Shown here: positions 10,498-35,832 of the stretch, piece after piece
Layout of the letters: each line of letters opens with the position of its first letter
Numbering within the stretch: the stretch's first letter is position 1
DNA from: Caulobacteraceae bacterium
GTDB lineage: Bacteria; Pseudomonadota; Alphaproteobacteria; Caulobacterales; Caulobacteraceae
Reading direction: 5' to 3'
Assembly (NCBI GenBank): GCA_947447115.1
Contig: CANFKD010000005.1
Span: forward strand, 1 to 44,825
Length of the DNA: 44,825 nucleotides
Program-made: the position numbers and the translations under genes
Notes under the pieces: model-generated
Told to the model about the DNA's origin: nothing
Seen by the model: only the letters and a program-made list of their open reading frames with translations
Databases searched by the model: none

Positions 10498-13404
10498 TTA
10501 GAAGTGGTAGTGCACTTCCGCACCGATCAGGCGAGGCGCCGTCAGGTTCAACGTCTTGTTGTTGACGTAAGGAAGAGTCGTTCCACCCGCTGGATTGCGA
10601 ACATATCCGCCGCCAGCTGCGGCTTCATAGCCGATCTGGTCAAACAGGTTCTTCACGTAGGCGACCAACTCGTAGTTGCCCTTGTTGCTCGTCCAAGTGC
10701 TGCGCAGATCCACTTGGCTCCAAGCAGGGGCCTCGTTGTAGCTACGGGCAAAGATGTTGGCGTAGGACTTGTCCTTCCAGATATAGGATCCAGAAACGGT
10801 CAGGTTACCCGGCTCAAACTCCATCGTGTAGTTGGCATTGATCGCAAACTTGTTCTTCGGCGTTTGTGGCAAAGGATTGCCCTCAACGCTTTGGATCTGG
10901 TCGTTATAATCAGCGCTGGCGACGTTGCCGTTGGCCACCGTTCCTGGATATTGCGAGTAGGTCGCCAGGGTCTTACCGCGTGGCTGAGCGCCAGCGGCAA
11001 TGGCCAGTGGATCGGCTGGATCAATGAAGCAGCTGGTCGAGGCAGTCGCAATAAAGCCGGCGGCATTGGCCACTGGCGGCTTACAGGCGGTCGTGATCTC
11101 GGTCTTGTTGTAACCATAGATCATCGAGAAGTTCAGGTGACGAACCGGGGTCCAACGCATCGACAGTTCAATACCATCCGACGTTGCCGTTGGGATGTTA
11201 ATGAAGCGGTTCAGGTTGATATAGGTCGCCTTAAGAGCCGAAGGCCCGCTGATACCGTCTTGCCCGGTGTAGCTTGGCGAACCGAGTGGCACCTGATTGT
11301 TCTTATAGTCATAGTGGAAGGCCGCGAGGTCGACGGTCAGGCTGCGGTCGAAGAAGGACTTCTTCAGACCCATTTCATAATCGTCTAGGCTTTCTGGTTC
11401 GGCATAGACGCCTTCACCAATATAACCCGCGTTCAGAGCAAAGGCCTTATAGCCACGGCTGTAGCGAGCATAGGCCAGAGTATCGCGATCAGGCGTATAG
11501 TTGACAGCAAGTGTGCCGGTTGTCGCATCGGAATGACCACGAAGATAACGCGTGGCATCGCCTGCATACTTGCCCGTGGTCGCATAGATCACTGGACCAG
11601 CGATGCCCTTGCCAGGAGCCGTCGAGATCAGCACAGAAGTAATATCTGCGGCTGGGGTTAAGCTACCCAAGATACCCGCGAGGTTCGAGCTATTCATCTT
11701 GATGTACCGCGTCTCTTCGTGAGCGGACTTCAGGTCGTAAGAATAGCGCAGACCGGCGGTGACTTTGATGGTGTCGGTCACCTTATAATCGGCCTGTGCA
11801 AAGGCAGCGGTGGTGTTGGAGTGCGACTGATAGCTGGCAAAGATCAGATTGCCGCTCTGGAGCGGATTTTGTAGCGCGCGCTGAGCCGCAGGCATTCCCT
11901 TATAGGCCGGAACGCCAAGCAGGCCGAGATAGTGCAGGACCTCTTGCGTCGACGATGCCGTTGGGAACTGTGCTGCAGGTGCCCCAAGGACATTGTTCAG
12001 GGTGATCACGTTCCAGGTCGAGCCGGTTTGAAGGGCGGACTGGGAAGAACTGGTGGTGAAGGGGTTATCGGTCTGCTCATCATAATGATAGGCACCCGCC
12101 ACCCAGCTCAGCTTACCATTGCCGGTCGAGGTGAAGGTCACTTCATTGCTGTACCACTTGGGGTGGGCTTCAAACATGAAGTTGGTGCGCGTATCGACGG
12201 TCAGGGGCGAACAGGCGGCGCCCAAATAGGCGCAGACGGGGGTCGCCGAATTGGCTGGCGTATAGAGCGGCAGCTTGTAGGACGTGACCGAAGACTGACC
12301 ATTGGTGAAGTCATACTGGTTCAGCACATAGTGATATTCCGAATAGCCACCGACATATTTCATGTCGACGCCGTCGAAATGGTGCGTCCAGTGGAAGTTC
12401 AACGAATAGGAAGAACGCAGCTTGATCGTGGTGGGCTGCTGAACGCTGACTGTTCGGTTCTTCAAGGTCGAAGGATTGTCGGAGGTGGCGTTCTTACCGA
12501 CGGCTGAACCGGCAATGATGTCCGTGCCATAGGCACCGTTCGGGTTGAAAAACAGACCCGTACCCTGAGCGGTCACATCCAGCGCACCGATGGTGGGCAT
12601 GCCGAGCAACGAGCCGGGGCCACCACGGTTATTGTTGAAGGACTGGTCATAGGCCATGAACCATAGCTCGTCCTTGGCACCCTTATATTGCAGCTGCAGT
12701 TCACCATAGTTGTCATGGTGAACTTCGCCGAGGGACTTGCCTGCGAGGTTCTTATAGTAGCCGCGATCTTGGTCGAGGCGGAAGAAACTCAGGCGACCGG
12801 TCAGGTTCTCGGTCAGCGGGCCCGAAACAGTCCCGGCCAGCTTGTGATACTGATAGCTGCCGACGGCGGCGCGCAGTTCACCGGAGAAGGACTCGGTTGG
12901 ACGACGCGACTTGGTGTTGATAACGCCACCGATCGAGTTGCGGCCATAGAGCGTGTTTTGTGGACCGGAAAGCACTTCAACCTGCTCGACCAGCATATCG
13001 TCGCGGCCAGCGAGGTAGGAGGAGTTGGTGAACAGGTCATTGTCATAAACGCCAACAGCAGAGTCGGCCAGATAGACGTTGGTGCTGCGCGACAGACCGC
13101 GGATGACCGGACGGTCAAGCTGGCTGGAATAGGTCAGGCCGGGCGTGAAATTGGTCATGTCCTGAACGCTGTTGATCCCGATCAAGGCGCGTTCTTTGGA
13201 CGTGAAGGCGGTTACCGCGATGGGCACCTGCTGGAGGCTGACCGAACGCTTTTCGGCGGTGACAACCACCTCTTCAACGGTGTTGCCCTTGGCAGTGGCT
13301 TGAGCCGGTTCATCAGCGGCATAGGCAAAGTTAGAAATGGTAGCAACGGCAATGGCTGAAACGCCAATTGCCAGATAGCTCCGCAAACGCAGAGTATGTG
13401 TCAT
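10498..13404 (-). CDS. TonB-dependent outer membrane receptor
   Basis: A second energised outer membrane transporter, 968 residues. The start at 13404 has TAGGGAGG upstream and yields MTHTLRLRSYLAIGVSAIAVATISNFAYAAD, a signal peptide. Next come a TonB-box-like EEVVVTAEKRS, the plug with VEVLSGPQNTLYGRNSIGGVIN, and a barrel that ends in HYHF, with the terminal Phe typical of outer membrane barrels. The signal-peptide region is almost identical to that of the neighbouring receptor (LRLRSYLA[MI]GVSA), but plug and barrel have diverged strongly, suggesting an old tandem duplication or domain exchange. Ligand unknown. The divergent gap to queC (13405-13699) holds the short palindrome CCAATTGG and an AT-rich block at 13466-13490 that may contain its promoter. 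Confidence 0.93.
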   Translation of the reverse strand: MTHTLRLRSYLAIGVSAIAVATISNFAYAADEPAQATAKGNTVEEVVVTAEKRSVSLQQVPIAVTAFTSKERALIGINSVQDMTNFTPGLTYSSQLDRPVIRGLSRSTNVYLADSAVGVYDNDLFTNSSYLAGRDDMLVEQVEVLSGPQNTLYGRNSIGGVINTKSRRPTESFSGELRAAVGSYQYHKLAGTVSGPLTENLTGRLSFFRLDQDRGYYKNLAGKSLGEVHHDNYGELQLQYKGAKDELWFMAYDQSFNNNRGGPGSLLGMPTIGALDVTAQGTGLFFNPNGAYGTDIIAGSAVGKNATSDNPSTLKNRTVSVQQPTTIKLRSSYSLNFHWTHHFDGVDMKYVGGYSEYHYVLNQYDFTNGQSSVTSYKLPLYTPANSATPVCAYLGAACSPLTVDTRTNFMFEAHPKWYSNEVTFTSTGNGKLSWVAGAYHYDEQTDNPFTTSSSQSALQTGSTWNVITLNNVLGAPAAQFPTASSTQEVLHYLGLLGVPAYKGMPAAQRALQNPLQSGNLIFASYQSHSNTTAAFAQADYKVTDTIKVTAGLRYSYDLKSAHEETRYIKMNSSNLAGILGSLTPAADITSVLISTAPGKGIAGPVIYATTGKYAGDATRYLRGHSDATTGTLAVNYTPDRDTLAYARYSRGYKAFALNAGYIGEGVYAEPESLDDYEMGLKKSFFDRSLTVDLAAFHYDYKNNQVPLGSPSYTGQDGISGPSALKATYINLNRFINIPTATSDGIELSMRWTPVRHLNFSMIYGYNKTEITTACKPPVANAAGFIATASTSCFIDPADPLAIAAGAQPRGKTLATYSQYPGTVANGNVASADYNDQIQSVEGNPLPQTPKNKFAINANYTMEFEPGNLTVSGSYIWKDKSYANIFARSYNEAPAWSQVDLRSTWTSNKGNYELVAYVKNLFDQIGYEAAAGGGYVRNPAGGTTLPYVNNKTLNLTAPRLIGAEVHYHF

Positions 13405-13699
13405 GTAGGTCCTCCCTAGCAACCAAGGCCGATTTTGATCGGTCCAATTGGTGCAAATCCCCGGCGAAAATATTGTTTTGACTAAAATAACCTAGATTTC
13501 AGACGCTTAGCCTCTGAAAGCCATGTTGCGGTTATGTCGGCCAATCCTGATCCGGCGGCACCTGGGCGAACCCAGACGTCTCCGTCGAAGCAGGACGAGC
13601 GCTGGCTAACAGCAACTGACTCTGGGTGCGAGAGATAAATGCGACTTTCCCTGCGGCATAAGGTAAAAAAACCCGCCTGTGACTAATTTGAGAGCATCC

Positions 13700-33774: not shown

Positions 33775-33919
33775 GGATCAAACCCCAAACCCAAAGGAAG
33801 GGGCGAACCTGACCGCTCCAGCCGATTAGGGCAACCCCGTTCGTGCAGCCTCTCTAAACTGTGAGCACTGGCCAAAATGGCGCACCCCTTGCACCGCTAA
33901 TTTTGATCACCACCTATCA

Positions 33920-34031
33920 TTCGAAGGCGCTGGATAACCGGGCCTTTCAGGATCGACGCGGGGCCCATTTGGGACTGCGTGATGGCCTGCCCATGAACCA
34001 CAACCTTGCTTAACCCAAGAAGGATGTTGCT
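33920..34031 (+). promoter_or_regulatory. ROSE-like RNA thermometer in the hsp20 leader
   Basis: The last 30 nt before the ATG fold into a hairpin: CACAACCUUGCUU pairs with AAGAAGGAUGUUG around an AACCC loop, with a bulged G in UUGCU opposite the Shine-Dalgarno AAGGA. A UUGCU (UYGCU) strand facing the ribosome binding site is the defining feature of ROSE elements, which melt on heating. Upstream, GGGCC/GGCCC can form another stem. A possible heat-shock promoter (CTTG at 33888, CCTAT at 33913) has non-ideal spacing. The class assignment rests on hand folding. Confidence 0.65.
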
Positions 34032-34490
34032 ATGCGTACGACAGATTTTTCCCCGCTCTATCGCTCTGTGGTCGGCTTTGACCGCTTGGCGCAGCTGCTC
34101 GAATCCGCTGCGGCCACCGAAGGTCCGACCGGCTATCCGCCCTACAATATCGAGCGCACCGACGAGAACGCCTATCGGATCGAGATTGCGGTTGCAGGCT
34201 TTTCGCAGGACGACCTGACCATCGAGGTCAAAGAGAACCTGCTCACCGTCCAAGGTCGTAAGCCCGCCAGTGAAGAGACCAAGCGCTATCTGCATCGCGG
34301 CCTCGCCGCCCGCAGTTTTGAACGCCGGTTCCAACTGGCTGACTATGTGGTCGTCACCGAAGCGGGCTTGGCCAACGGACTACTCTCTGTCTCGCTAAAG
34401 CGCGAACTGCCTGAGCAACTGAAGACCCGGCGTATTGAAATCACGACCTCAACAGGACCCTTGATTGAGACCACGGCCCAAGCCGCCTAA
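34032..34490 (+). CDS. Small heat shock protein, Hsp20/IbpA type
   Basis: An ATP-independent chaperone that holds unfolding proteins during heat stress. The 152 residues comprise a short N-terminus, the alpha-crystallin domain (YNIERTDENAYRIEIAVAGFSQDDLTIEVKENLLTVQG to LANGLLSVSLKRELPE, about 38-130), and a C-terminal tail carrying RRIEI as the IxI-type anchor. The pattern YRIEIAVAGF and DLTIEV is class A rhizobial/IbpA-like. Its expression is probably controlled by the RNA hairpin that hides its ribosome binding site, and the gene ends in its own terminator. Confidence 0.95.
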   Translation: MRTTDFSPLYRSVVGFDRLAQLLESAAATEGPTGYPPYNIERTDENAYRIEIAVAGFSQDDLTIEVKENLLTVQGRKPASEETKRYLHRGLAARSFERRFQLADYVVVTEAGLANGLLSVSLKRELPEQLKTRRIEITTSTGPLIETTAQAA

Positions 34491-34515: not shown

Positions 34516-34567
34516 CCCCTGCCCGCTGCGTCCTTCCCCCCGAGGACGCGGATGGGCGGGGGTTTCT
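34516..34567 (+). terminator. Probable intrinsic terminator after hsp20
   Basis: An interrupted GC-rich stem: CCCC-GCCC with GGGC-GGGG and an inner GCGTCC/GGACGC, followed by TTTCT. It lies in the convergent gap before the pentapeptide-repeat gene. Confidence 0.65.
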
Positions 34568-34587: not shown

Positions 34588-35832
34588 CTAGGGGTTCTGG
34601 TTCCAGCCCATTACGTGGTCAAGCATCGCACCGTCAAACTCACATCCCCGGATATTGGCATTGGTGAAATCAGCGCCAGTTAAATCGGCGTTCGTCAGCA
34701 CAGCCTCACGAAAATCCGCCTCGATGCCGTTGACCCCGCGAAGGCTCGCGCCCGTCAGGTCGGTTTTTATCGCGCGTCCATCGCTTATTCTGAGGGGCCC
34801 CAACTGCGCCCTTTCAAGATTTGCCAATGAGAGGTTCGCGCCAGCCAGCCGCGCGCCGCGTAGGTCTGCTGATCGAAGATTACATCCCCGAAGGTCAGCG
34901 CCTTCCAAATGAGCGCCCTGCAAGCCGACGCCCTCAAGATCTAATCCAAAGAAGATCGCATTTTTCGCAGACAGAGCGGACAGCAGCATCCCACGCAAAG
35001 TCGCCACAGAGCGAAGGTCTGCCTCGTCAAAGCGTGTAAGCGCACCCTCACGCCCTGCCGTTTCACACCAGAGGCTATAGTTTTTTAGTAGCTCACCGTA
35101 AGGGCGATCCGAACTGACTCCATCACGAATGATGCCGGTCAAGAGGGCGCGGTCCATGATGCAGCCTTCGGTCTTCGCCCCGATCAGGATGGCTCGCGAA
35201 AGATTGGCATCTGTCAATTTCGTACCCGACAGGTCGCTACCAGACAGGTCGGCGTTGCTTAGATTGGCCGATTTCAAATTGGCTCGGACCAATCGGCAAT
35301 CCTTGAGGATCGCATTGGAAAAATCTGCGCTGATGGCGACAATACCGCCCAACTGAGATCGAGAAAGATTGGCCCCAGAAAGGTCAGCAACGGGCGCGCC
35401 GCGTCGGTTGGCCCAGAGGGAATGGGCAACCACGCCCTGTTTGCGATCGGAAAGGGCAATCGAGCCCTCTCGAAGATCGGCCTCAAATAGGTCGGCCTCG
35501 GTCAGGTTGGCACCCCTTAGACAGGCACCCCTTAAATCAGACCGACGAAGATTGCCCCCCCGCAGATCCGCATCCGTCAGGTCGGCTCCAAACAGGGTCG
35601 CATTCTCAAGGGAGGTTCGTAGAAATTTCGTGCCACGTAAGATCGCGCCGGTGAAATCGGCCTCAGAAAGGTTTTTGCCGCTCAAGACCAGTCCGGAAAG
35701 ATCCATCCAAGCAAAGACAGCTCGCGCGCCTCCGGGCCGCGTGGTCTTAAACCGCTCATGTTTGTCACAGATCTCATTGATCTGGGCTTGGGTCAGGCGA
35801 GAGGGCGGTTCAATATTCGGCGGAATGGCCAT
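34588..35832 (-). CDS. Pentapeptide-repeat protein
   Basis: A right-handed quadrilateral beta-helix protein of 414 residues built mainly from A(D/N)LXX repeats (LSGANLSRSQLGG, DLTDADLRGGNLRRSDLRGACLRGANLTEADL and many more). There are two interruptions: a short one near residue 125 (DRKQGVVAHSLWANRRG) and a longer one near residues 235-265 containing YSLWCETAGREG. The N-terminal 40 residues are non-repeat (PSRLTQAQINEICDKHERF), with no signal peptide, so the protein is cytoplasmic. Some such proteins mimic DNA and protect gyrase; most have no known role. It lies alone, convergent with hsp20. Confidence 0.93.
   Translation of the reverse strand: MAIPPNIEPPSRLTQAQINEICDKHERFKTTRPGGARAVFAWMDLSGLVLSGKNLSEADFTGAILRGTKFLRTSLENATLFGADLTDADLRGGNLRRSDLRGACLRGANLTEADLFEADLREGSIALSDRKQGVVAHSLWANRRGAPVADLSGANLSRSQLGGIVAISADFSNAILKDCRLVRANLKSANLSNADLSGSDLSGTKLTDANLSRAILIGAKTEGCIMDRALLTGIIRDGVSSDRPYGELLKNYSLWCETAGREGALTRFDEADLRSVATLRGMLLSALSAKNAIFFGLDLEGVGLQGAHLEGADLRGCNLRSADLRGARLAGANLSLANLERAQLGPLRISDGRAIKTDLTGASLRGVNGIEADFREAVLTNADLTGADFTNANIRGCEFDGAMLDHVMGWNQNP

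Follow-up and report, generated by a model that had tools for sequence, protein, structure and literature searches.

A predicted ROSE-type RNA thermometer in the ibpA leader of Caulobacteraceae, in a variant missed by Rfam

Introduction

Is the ribosome binding site of a small heat shock protein (sHsp) gene in a Caulobacteraceae genome masked by an RNA hairpin of the ROSE type, and is that hairpin more than a chance pairing of a pyrimidine-rich strand with a purine-rich one? ROSE elements have been known in alpha- and gammaproteobacteria since 2001-2005. The question arises in a window of 44,825 nucleotides (the whole stretch of DNA analysed here) which comes from a metagenome-assembled genome, and in which the original prediction had placed a hairpin with a UUGCU strand immediately in front of a small heat shock gene. 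A U(U/C)GCU strand blocking the Shine-Dalgarno (SD) sequence is a major characteristic of the ROSE-like thermometers of sHsp genes (PMC3669281). A passage of the same 2013 paper lists Caulobacter crescentus among the classical ROSE carriers, so the element in the window adds to a known kind of thermometer.

Results

The gene at 34032-34490 (+ strand) encodes an IbpA-type sHsp, which agrees with its original description as a small heat shock gene (hsp20). The 152-residue product matches the NCBIfam IbpA model at 165 bits (below the equivalog cut-off of 212), and its translation ends in Ala-Ala (34482-34487), as does Caulobacter sHSP1, a ClpXP substrate with a C-terminal AA degron according to a review (PMC8119881), which names the two sHsps of C. 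crescentus sHSP1/IbpA and sHSP2. An AAGGA SD sequence lies at 34020-34024 (+ strand), 7 bases 5' of the ATG, and a GC-rich inverted repeat followed by TTTCT at 34516-34566 (+ strand) is, from its sequence, a likely intrinsic terminator. The neighbours are two adjacent, similar open reading frames for secreted or lipoprotein methyltransferase-like proteins, divergent from ibpA (33774-32002, - strand), and a gene for a large pentapeptide-repeat-like protein, convergent with it (34588-35832, - strand).

Folding places a hairpin over the SD sequence at 33998-34029 (+ strand), which ends 2 nucleotides 5' of the ibpA reading frame and carries the U(U/C)GCU motif at 34006-34010. The lower stem is formed by C33998-G34029 and, beyond a C-U mismatch (C33999/U34028), by A34000-U34027, C34001-G34026 and A34002-U34025; an A-A mismatch (A34003/A34024) separates it from C34004-G34023, C34005-G34022, U34006-A34021 and U34007-A34020, and the bulged G34008 is followed by C34009-G34019, U34010-A34018 and U34011-A34017, closing a loop of 34012-34016. 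The core is thus only 4 plus 3 pairs. The hairpin proposed at 33996-34031 therefore exists in the place and with the bulge and mismatches described for it, as both a sequence check and folding confirm, with 11 rather than 12 base pairs. The proposal that UUGCU stands directly opposite AAGGA holds in that the strand hides the SD sequence, whereas the register differs by about two bases: UUGCU faces AGAA (34018-34021), and the GG of AAGGA is paired instead with the CC just 5' of UUGCU. An alternative register, in which UUGCU faces AGGA (34021-34024) and a C-U mismatch is followed by C-G, A-U, A-U and C-G pairs, is feasible in the window. It was ruled out in the comparison with relatives, most of which lack its lower stem, and in which sliding the partner by one base lowers the pairing from 94% to about 50%.

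Upstream of this hairpin the leader contains a promoter-like sequence and two further structures, all three of them absent from the original prediction, so that the ibpA leader totals three hairpins, of which the 5'-most is stable. In the literature, ROSE-like thermometers comprise between two and four hairpins, the 5' one being stable. A predicted heat-shock (sigma-32 type) promoter, identified by consensus match, spans 33888-33917 (+ strand) with CTTG at 33888-33891 and CCACCTAT at 33910-33917, and would place the 5' end of the transcript a few bases before 33923. The CTTG-N-CCCA/CCTA arrangement occurs at the same place in 45 of 46 relatives and in 3% of shuffles, counting consensus matches only. 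Hairpin I (33923-33947, + strand; GAAGGC-G-CUGG-AUAA-CCGG-GCCUUU) was found by RNAalifold and has 10 pairs and a bulged G33929. Hairpin II (33948-33989, + strand), found by folding, has a CAGG/CCUG outer stem and an inner stem at 33957-33979.

Folding energies of the single sequence do not distinguish the SD hairpin (z = -1.12) or the whole leader (z = -0.35) significantly from chance. By chance alone, about 0.65 matches per window are expected to the motif accompanied by two flanking pairs and a start codon. A whole-genome search for the pattern TYGCT-N-AGRA was uninformative: its matches were outnumbered by those of a reversed-pattern control in four genomes of the five searched and came close to parity in the other. 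A ROSE-like hairpin, GGUUGCUAGGGAGGACC (13398-13422, - strand), also covers the SD sequence of a TonB-dependent receptor gene elsewhere in the window, at about this chance rate. As to temperature, the energy of the SD hairpin is -8.7 kcal/mol at 25 degrees and -5.7 at 37. Canonical ROSE hairpins of the family are stronger, with a median of -10.9 at 37 degrees. The suggested comparison of folds at 25 and 42 degrees gave only a tiny opening (mean unpaired fraction of the SD sequence from 0.17 to 0.19), which neither supports nor refutes a thermometer, and over 20-50 degrees the SD sequence remains paired in the model, with almost no opening even at 50 degrees. Temperature folding is uninformative here because nearest-neighbour models of 28 canonical ROSE loci, used as a positive control to 42 degrees, predict no opening of the SD sequence either.

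Comparison with relatives is decisive where energy alone is not. An alignment of 48 non-redundant Caulobacteraceae ibpA leaders gave an RNAalifold consensus which reproduces the SD hairpin exactly, together with the two hairpins upstream. In this alignment 95.0% of cells are paired (89.2% in shuffles) and 85 show double changes (28 in shuffles), and the covariation score of 0.242 (0.140 shuffled) was reached by no shuffle; sliding the partner by one base reduces pairing to 57-58%. Covariation within the family is carried by hairpins I and II, the SD hairpin being nearly unvarying there: UUGCU is unchanged in 48/48 leaders, and G34008 is unchanged across all aligned relatives. Both the inner and the outer helix of hairpin II covary, and the cells of hairpin I are 99.2% paired, with double changes. 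Of 47 Caulobacteraceae leaders, 46 have the bulged G of hairpin I and its CYG...CGG core, and the form of this hairpin is recognisable in 34 of 58 leaders from other families (about 1% of shuffles in each case); under a slightly looser rule, the form is also found in 27 of 28 canonical loci of the Rfam type, compared with 4.6% in shuffles. In some Caulobacteraceae ibpA leaders (L018, L023, L100, L101, L204 and L205; several are Brevundimonas sequences), hairpin II and the SD hairpin appear to be separated by one more GC-rich hairpin, such as CCGUCCGGGCAAAUCGCCGGGCGG.

The variation that the SD hairpin lacks within the family is found at the level of the order. U(U/C)GCU precedes ibpA in all 60 sampled loci, two of which belong to Caulobacteraceae and the remaining 58 to four families outside it. 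Beside the motif the two strands of the other-family loci change jointly (UGUC/GACA, GAUC/GAUC, CUGUU/GACAG, CAGUU/GACUG), and one flanking pair is retained in 53 of the 58 as any of four Watson-Crick types (mean 23 and maximum 34 in shuffles). We aligned 68 distinct arm pairs from five families, the arm pair of the window among them, with the loop replaced by N and the 3' arm picked by a sequence rule. The SD hairpin is paired in 94.1% of cells against 74.3% in shuffles, with 116 double-change cells against 36 and a covariation of 0.555 against 0.177, while slides of 1 to 3 bases leave at most 51% of cells paired and a covariation of no more than 0.149. Even the one position of U(U/C)GCU that varies, its Y, belongs to a covarying pair (C-G in 30, U-G in 26 and U-A in 12). 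The compensatory changes which the original prediction had called for are thus present, and they show that evolution preserves the fold of the SD hairpin among over a hundred relatives.

We then asked how widely the leader can be recognised. Trained on 45 leaders, with the window and its genus excluded and the first four codons included, a covariance model scores 83.8 bits in the window (E = 3.5e-18) and finds no other match in its genome at E<=10; in the family it has matches at E<=0.01 in 161 of 199 genomes. The Rfam models proposed as a check behave differently. At the gathering threshold Rfam finds only a tRNA in the window and gives no hit in 20 related loci. RF00435 (ROSE) scores 18.8 bits there against a gathering cut-off of 45, and RF01832 (ROSE_2, the gammaproteobacterial model) gives no match in the window up to E = 10. 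The weak RF00435 match is full-length (33957-34038) and aligns UUGCU and the SD sequence correctly, while mistaking hairpin II for the first hairpin of the model. At gathering, RF00435 has no hit in this genome or its genus. It exceeds the cut-off in 37 of 390 family genomes, and so is functional in Caulobacteraceae. In the genomes that were cross-checked, its matches lie 5' of divergent sHsp paralogues (canonical loci, for example L111-L140), as in G015, G016, G022, G023 and G024, where the adjoining sHsp copies have 50-57% identity; these paralogues appear to be additional copies and not the core ibpA. In the approximately 28 genomes with matches to both models, compared by eye, the RF00435 site was never the ibpA leader. 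The low score in the window is therefore attributable to a curated model which does not cover the ibpA leaders of this lineage, and which overlooks its vertically inherited ibpA thermometer.

The second sHsp gene of the genome (contig G000:C22, locus L141, ATG at 757) is preceded by a promoter-like sequence, CTTGAA...CCATCT, and its SD sequence is covered by a GAAGUC-G-CUU/GAGGGCUUC hairpin with UCGCU (724-757 of that locus). UCGCU is kept 5' of this gene in nearly all relatives compared, and the hairpin itself is again present there in most of the Caulobacteraceae inspected. With both the hairpin and the promoter-like sequence present, the two sHsp genes of the genome appear to carry ROSE-type switches.

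Discussion

By the anatomy read from its sequence, the ibpA leader is of the ROSE type, in a variant missed by Rfam: it has the U(U/C)GCU anti-SD strand, the bulged G, the A-A mismatch below it, a stable 5' hairpin and a predicted heat-shock-type promoter, and the ROSE architecture claimed for it originally is borne out in these respects. We consider it very probable that the leader, about 110 nucleotides starting just before 33923, is an RNA thermometer. From this anatomy and from the gene context, we infer the melting of the RNA, its temperature and the translation that results. At growth temperature, the hairpin at 33998-34029 would pair the SD sequence with the CCUUGCUU strand and keep ribosomes off. 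Upon heat shock the imperfect stem, with its bulged G, A-A and C-U mismatches and short core, would loosen and expose AAGGA, whereas hairpins I and II would remain folded as a 5' cap and scaffold; both expectations are drawn by analogy with known ROSE elements (PMC3669281, PMC8346122, PMC9450479). The message itself would be supplied by the heat-shock sigma promoter, such that IbpA would be made only when hot.

The most serious competitor is a conserved leader which hides the SD sequence irrespective of temperature, setting a low level of translation or making it depend on a protein or small RNA, with heat induction due to the sigma factor only. Covariation is proof of structure and not of temperature sensing, the conservation of hairpin I could suit a binding partner, and the modelled melting is slight. 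Against these points, a U(U/C)GCU strand with an irregular G is what confers the thermal response in ROSE elements (PMC3669281, PMC8346122), and the hairpin in the window is weaker at 37 degrees than its canonical counterparts; we therefore regard a temperature-insensitive leader as improbable. Far less credence is due to the idea that UUGCU pairs with the purine-rich SD sequence by coincidence. The insignificant energy z-scores and the expected frequency of such matches, with a second one at 13422 (- strand) in front of the TonB receptor gene, would allow it, but the compensatory changes and the invariance of the motif over five families refute it. The conserved CUUGCU might also be read as part of a short upstream reading frame, ATGAACCACAACCTTGCTTAA, that attenuates translation. 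The window does contain a frame of this kind at 33993-34013, but one which spans the motif and ends before the SD sequence is found in only 4 of 60 relatives, and we dropped this explanation, which has next to no likelihood, as the frame is not conserved.

The rhizobial ROSE elements (RF00435; Bradyrhizobium hspA ROSE1) likewise precede sHsp genes, have several hairpins and set UUGCU with an irregular G against the SD sequence in the 3' hairpin; the A-A mismatch below is common to many canonical loci, and their stable 5' hairpin also has a G bulging from it (GGC-G-CY...GG-GCC). The leader in the window differs in its SD sequence, AAGAAGG in place of GAGGA, which sets UUGCU opposite AGAA and adds a further C-G pair over the SD sequence, and also in its weaker lower stem and a hairpin II of its own. 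In ROSE1, G83 is reported to form a G-G pair with the SD sequence (PMC8346122), whereas covariation in the present element favours a plain bulge. The C. crescentus element, so far as the passage listing it goes, is alike in coming from the same family, and close Caulobacter species in our alignment bear leaders of the window type. The short ROSE-like elements of Pseudomonas ibpA and the ROSE_2 element (RF01832) of E. coli ibpA share the gene, a heat-shock sigma promoter (predicted in the window), a U(U/C)GCU/SD hairpin and a stable hairpin I; their SD hairpin melts, as its counterpart in the window would be expected to do from its anatomy. The Pseudomonas elements are unlike this leader, consisting of two hairpins in about 60 nucleotides.

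What is added to a known kind of thermometer is a lineage variant overlooked by Rfam, strong order-wide covariation and a conserved bulged-G hairpin I. According to the 2013 paper (PMC3669281), it is not fully understood what the 5' hairpins of ROSE elements, which do not melt, contribute. Rather than an inert support, hairpin I may be a separate working part (a binding site, a protector of the 5' end or a folding nucleus), which would make ROSE leaders two-module devices; we offer this as a speculative proposal, and think it rather doubtful at present. In any case, its conservation sharpens the question of what such hairpins do. The ROSE thermometer predicted for ibpA would be conserved throughout the order Caulobacterales, yet in this family Rfam reports only the divergent paralogues; a better model could be built directly on the alignment.
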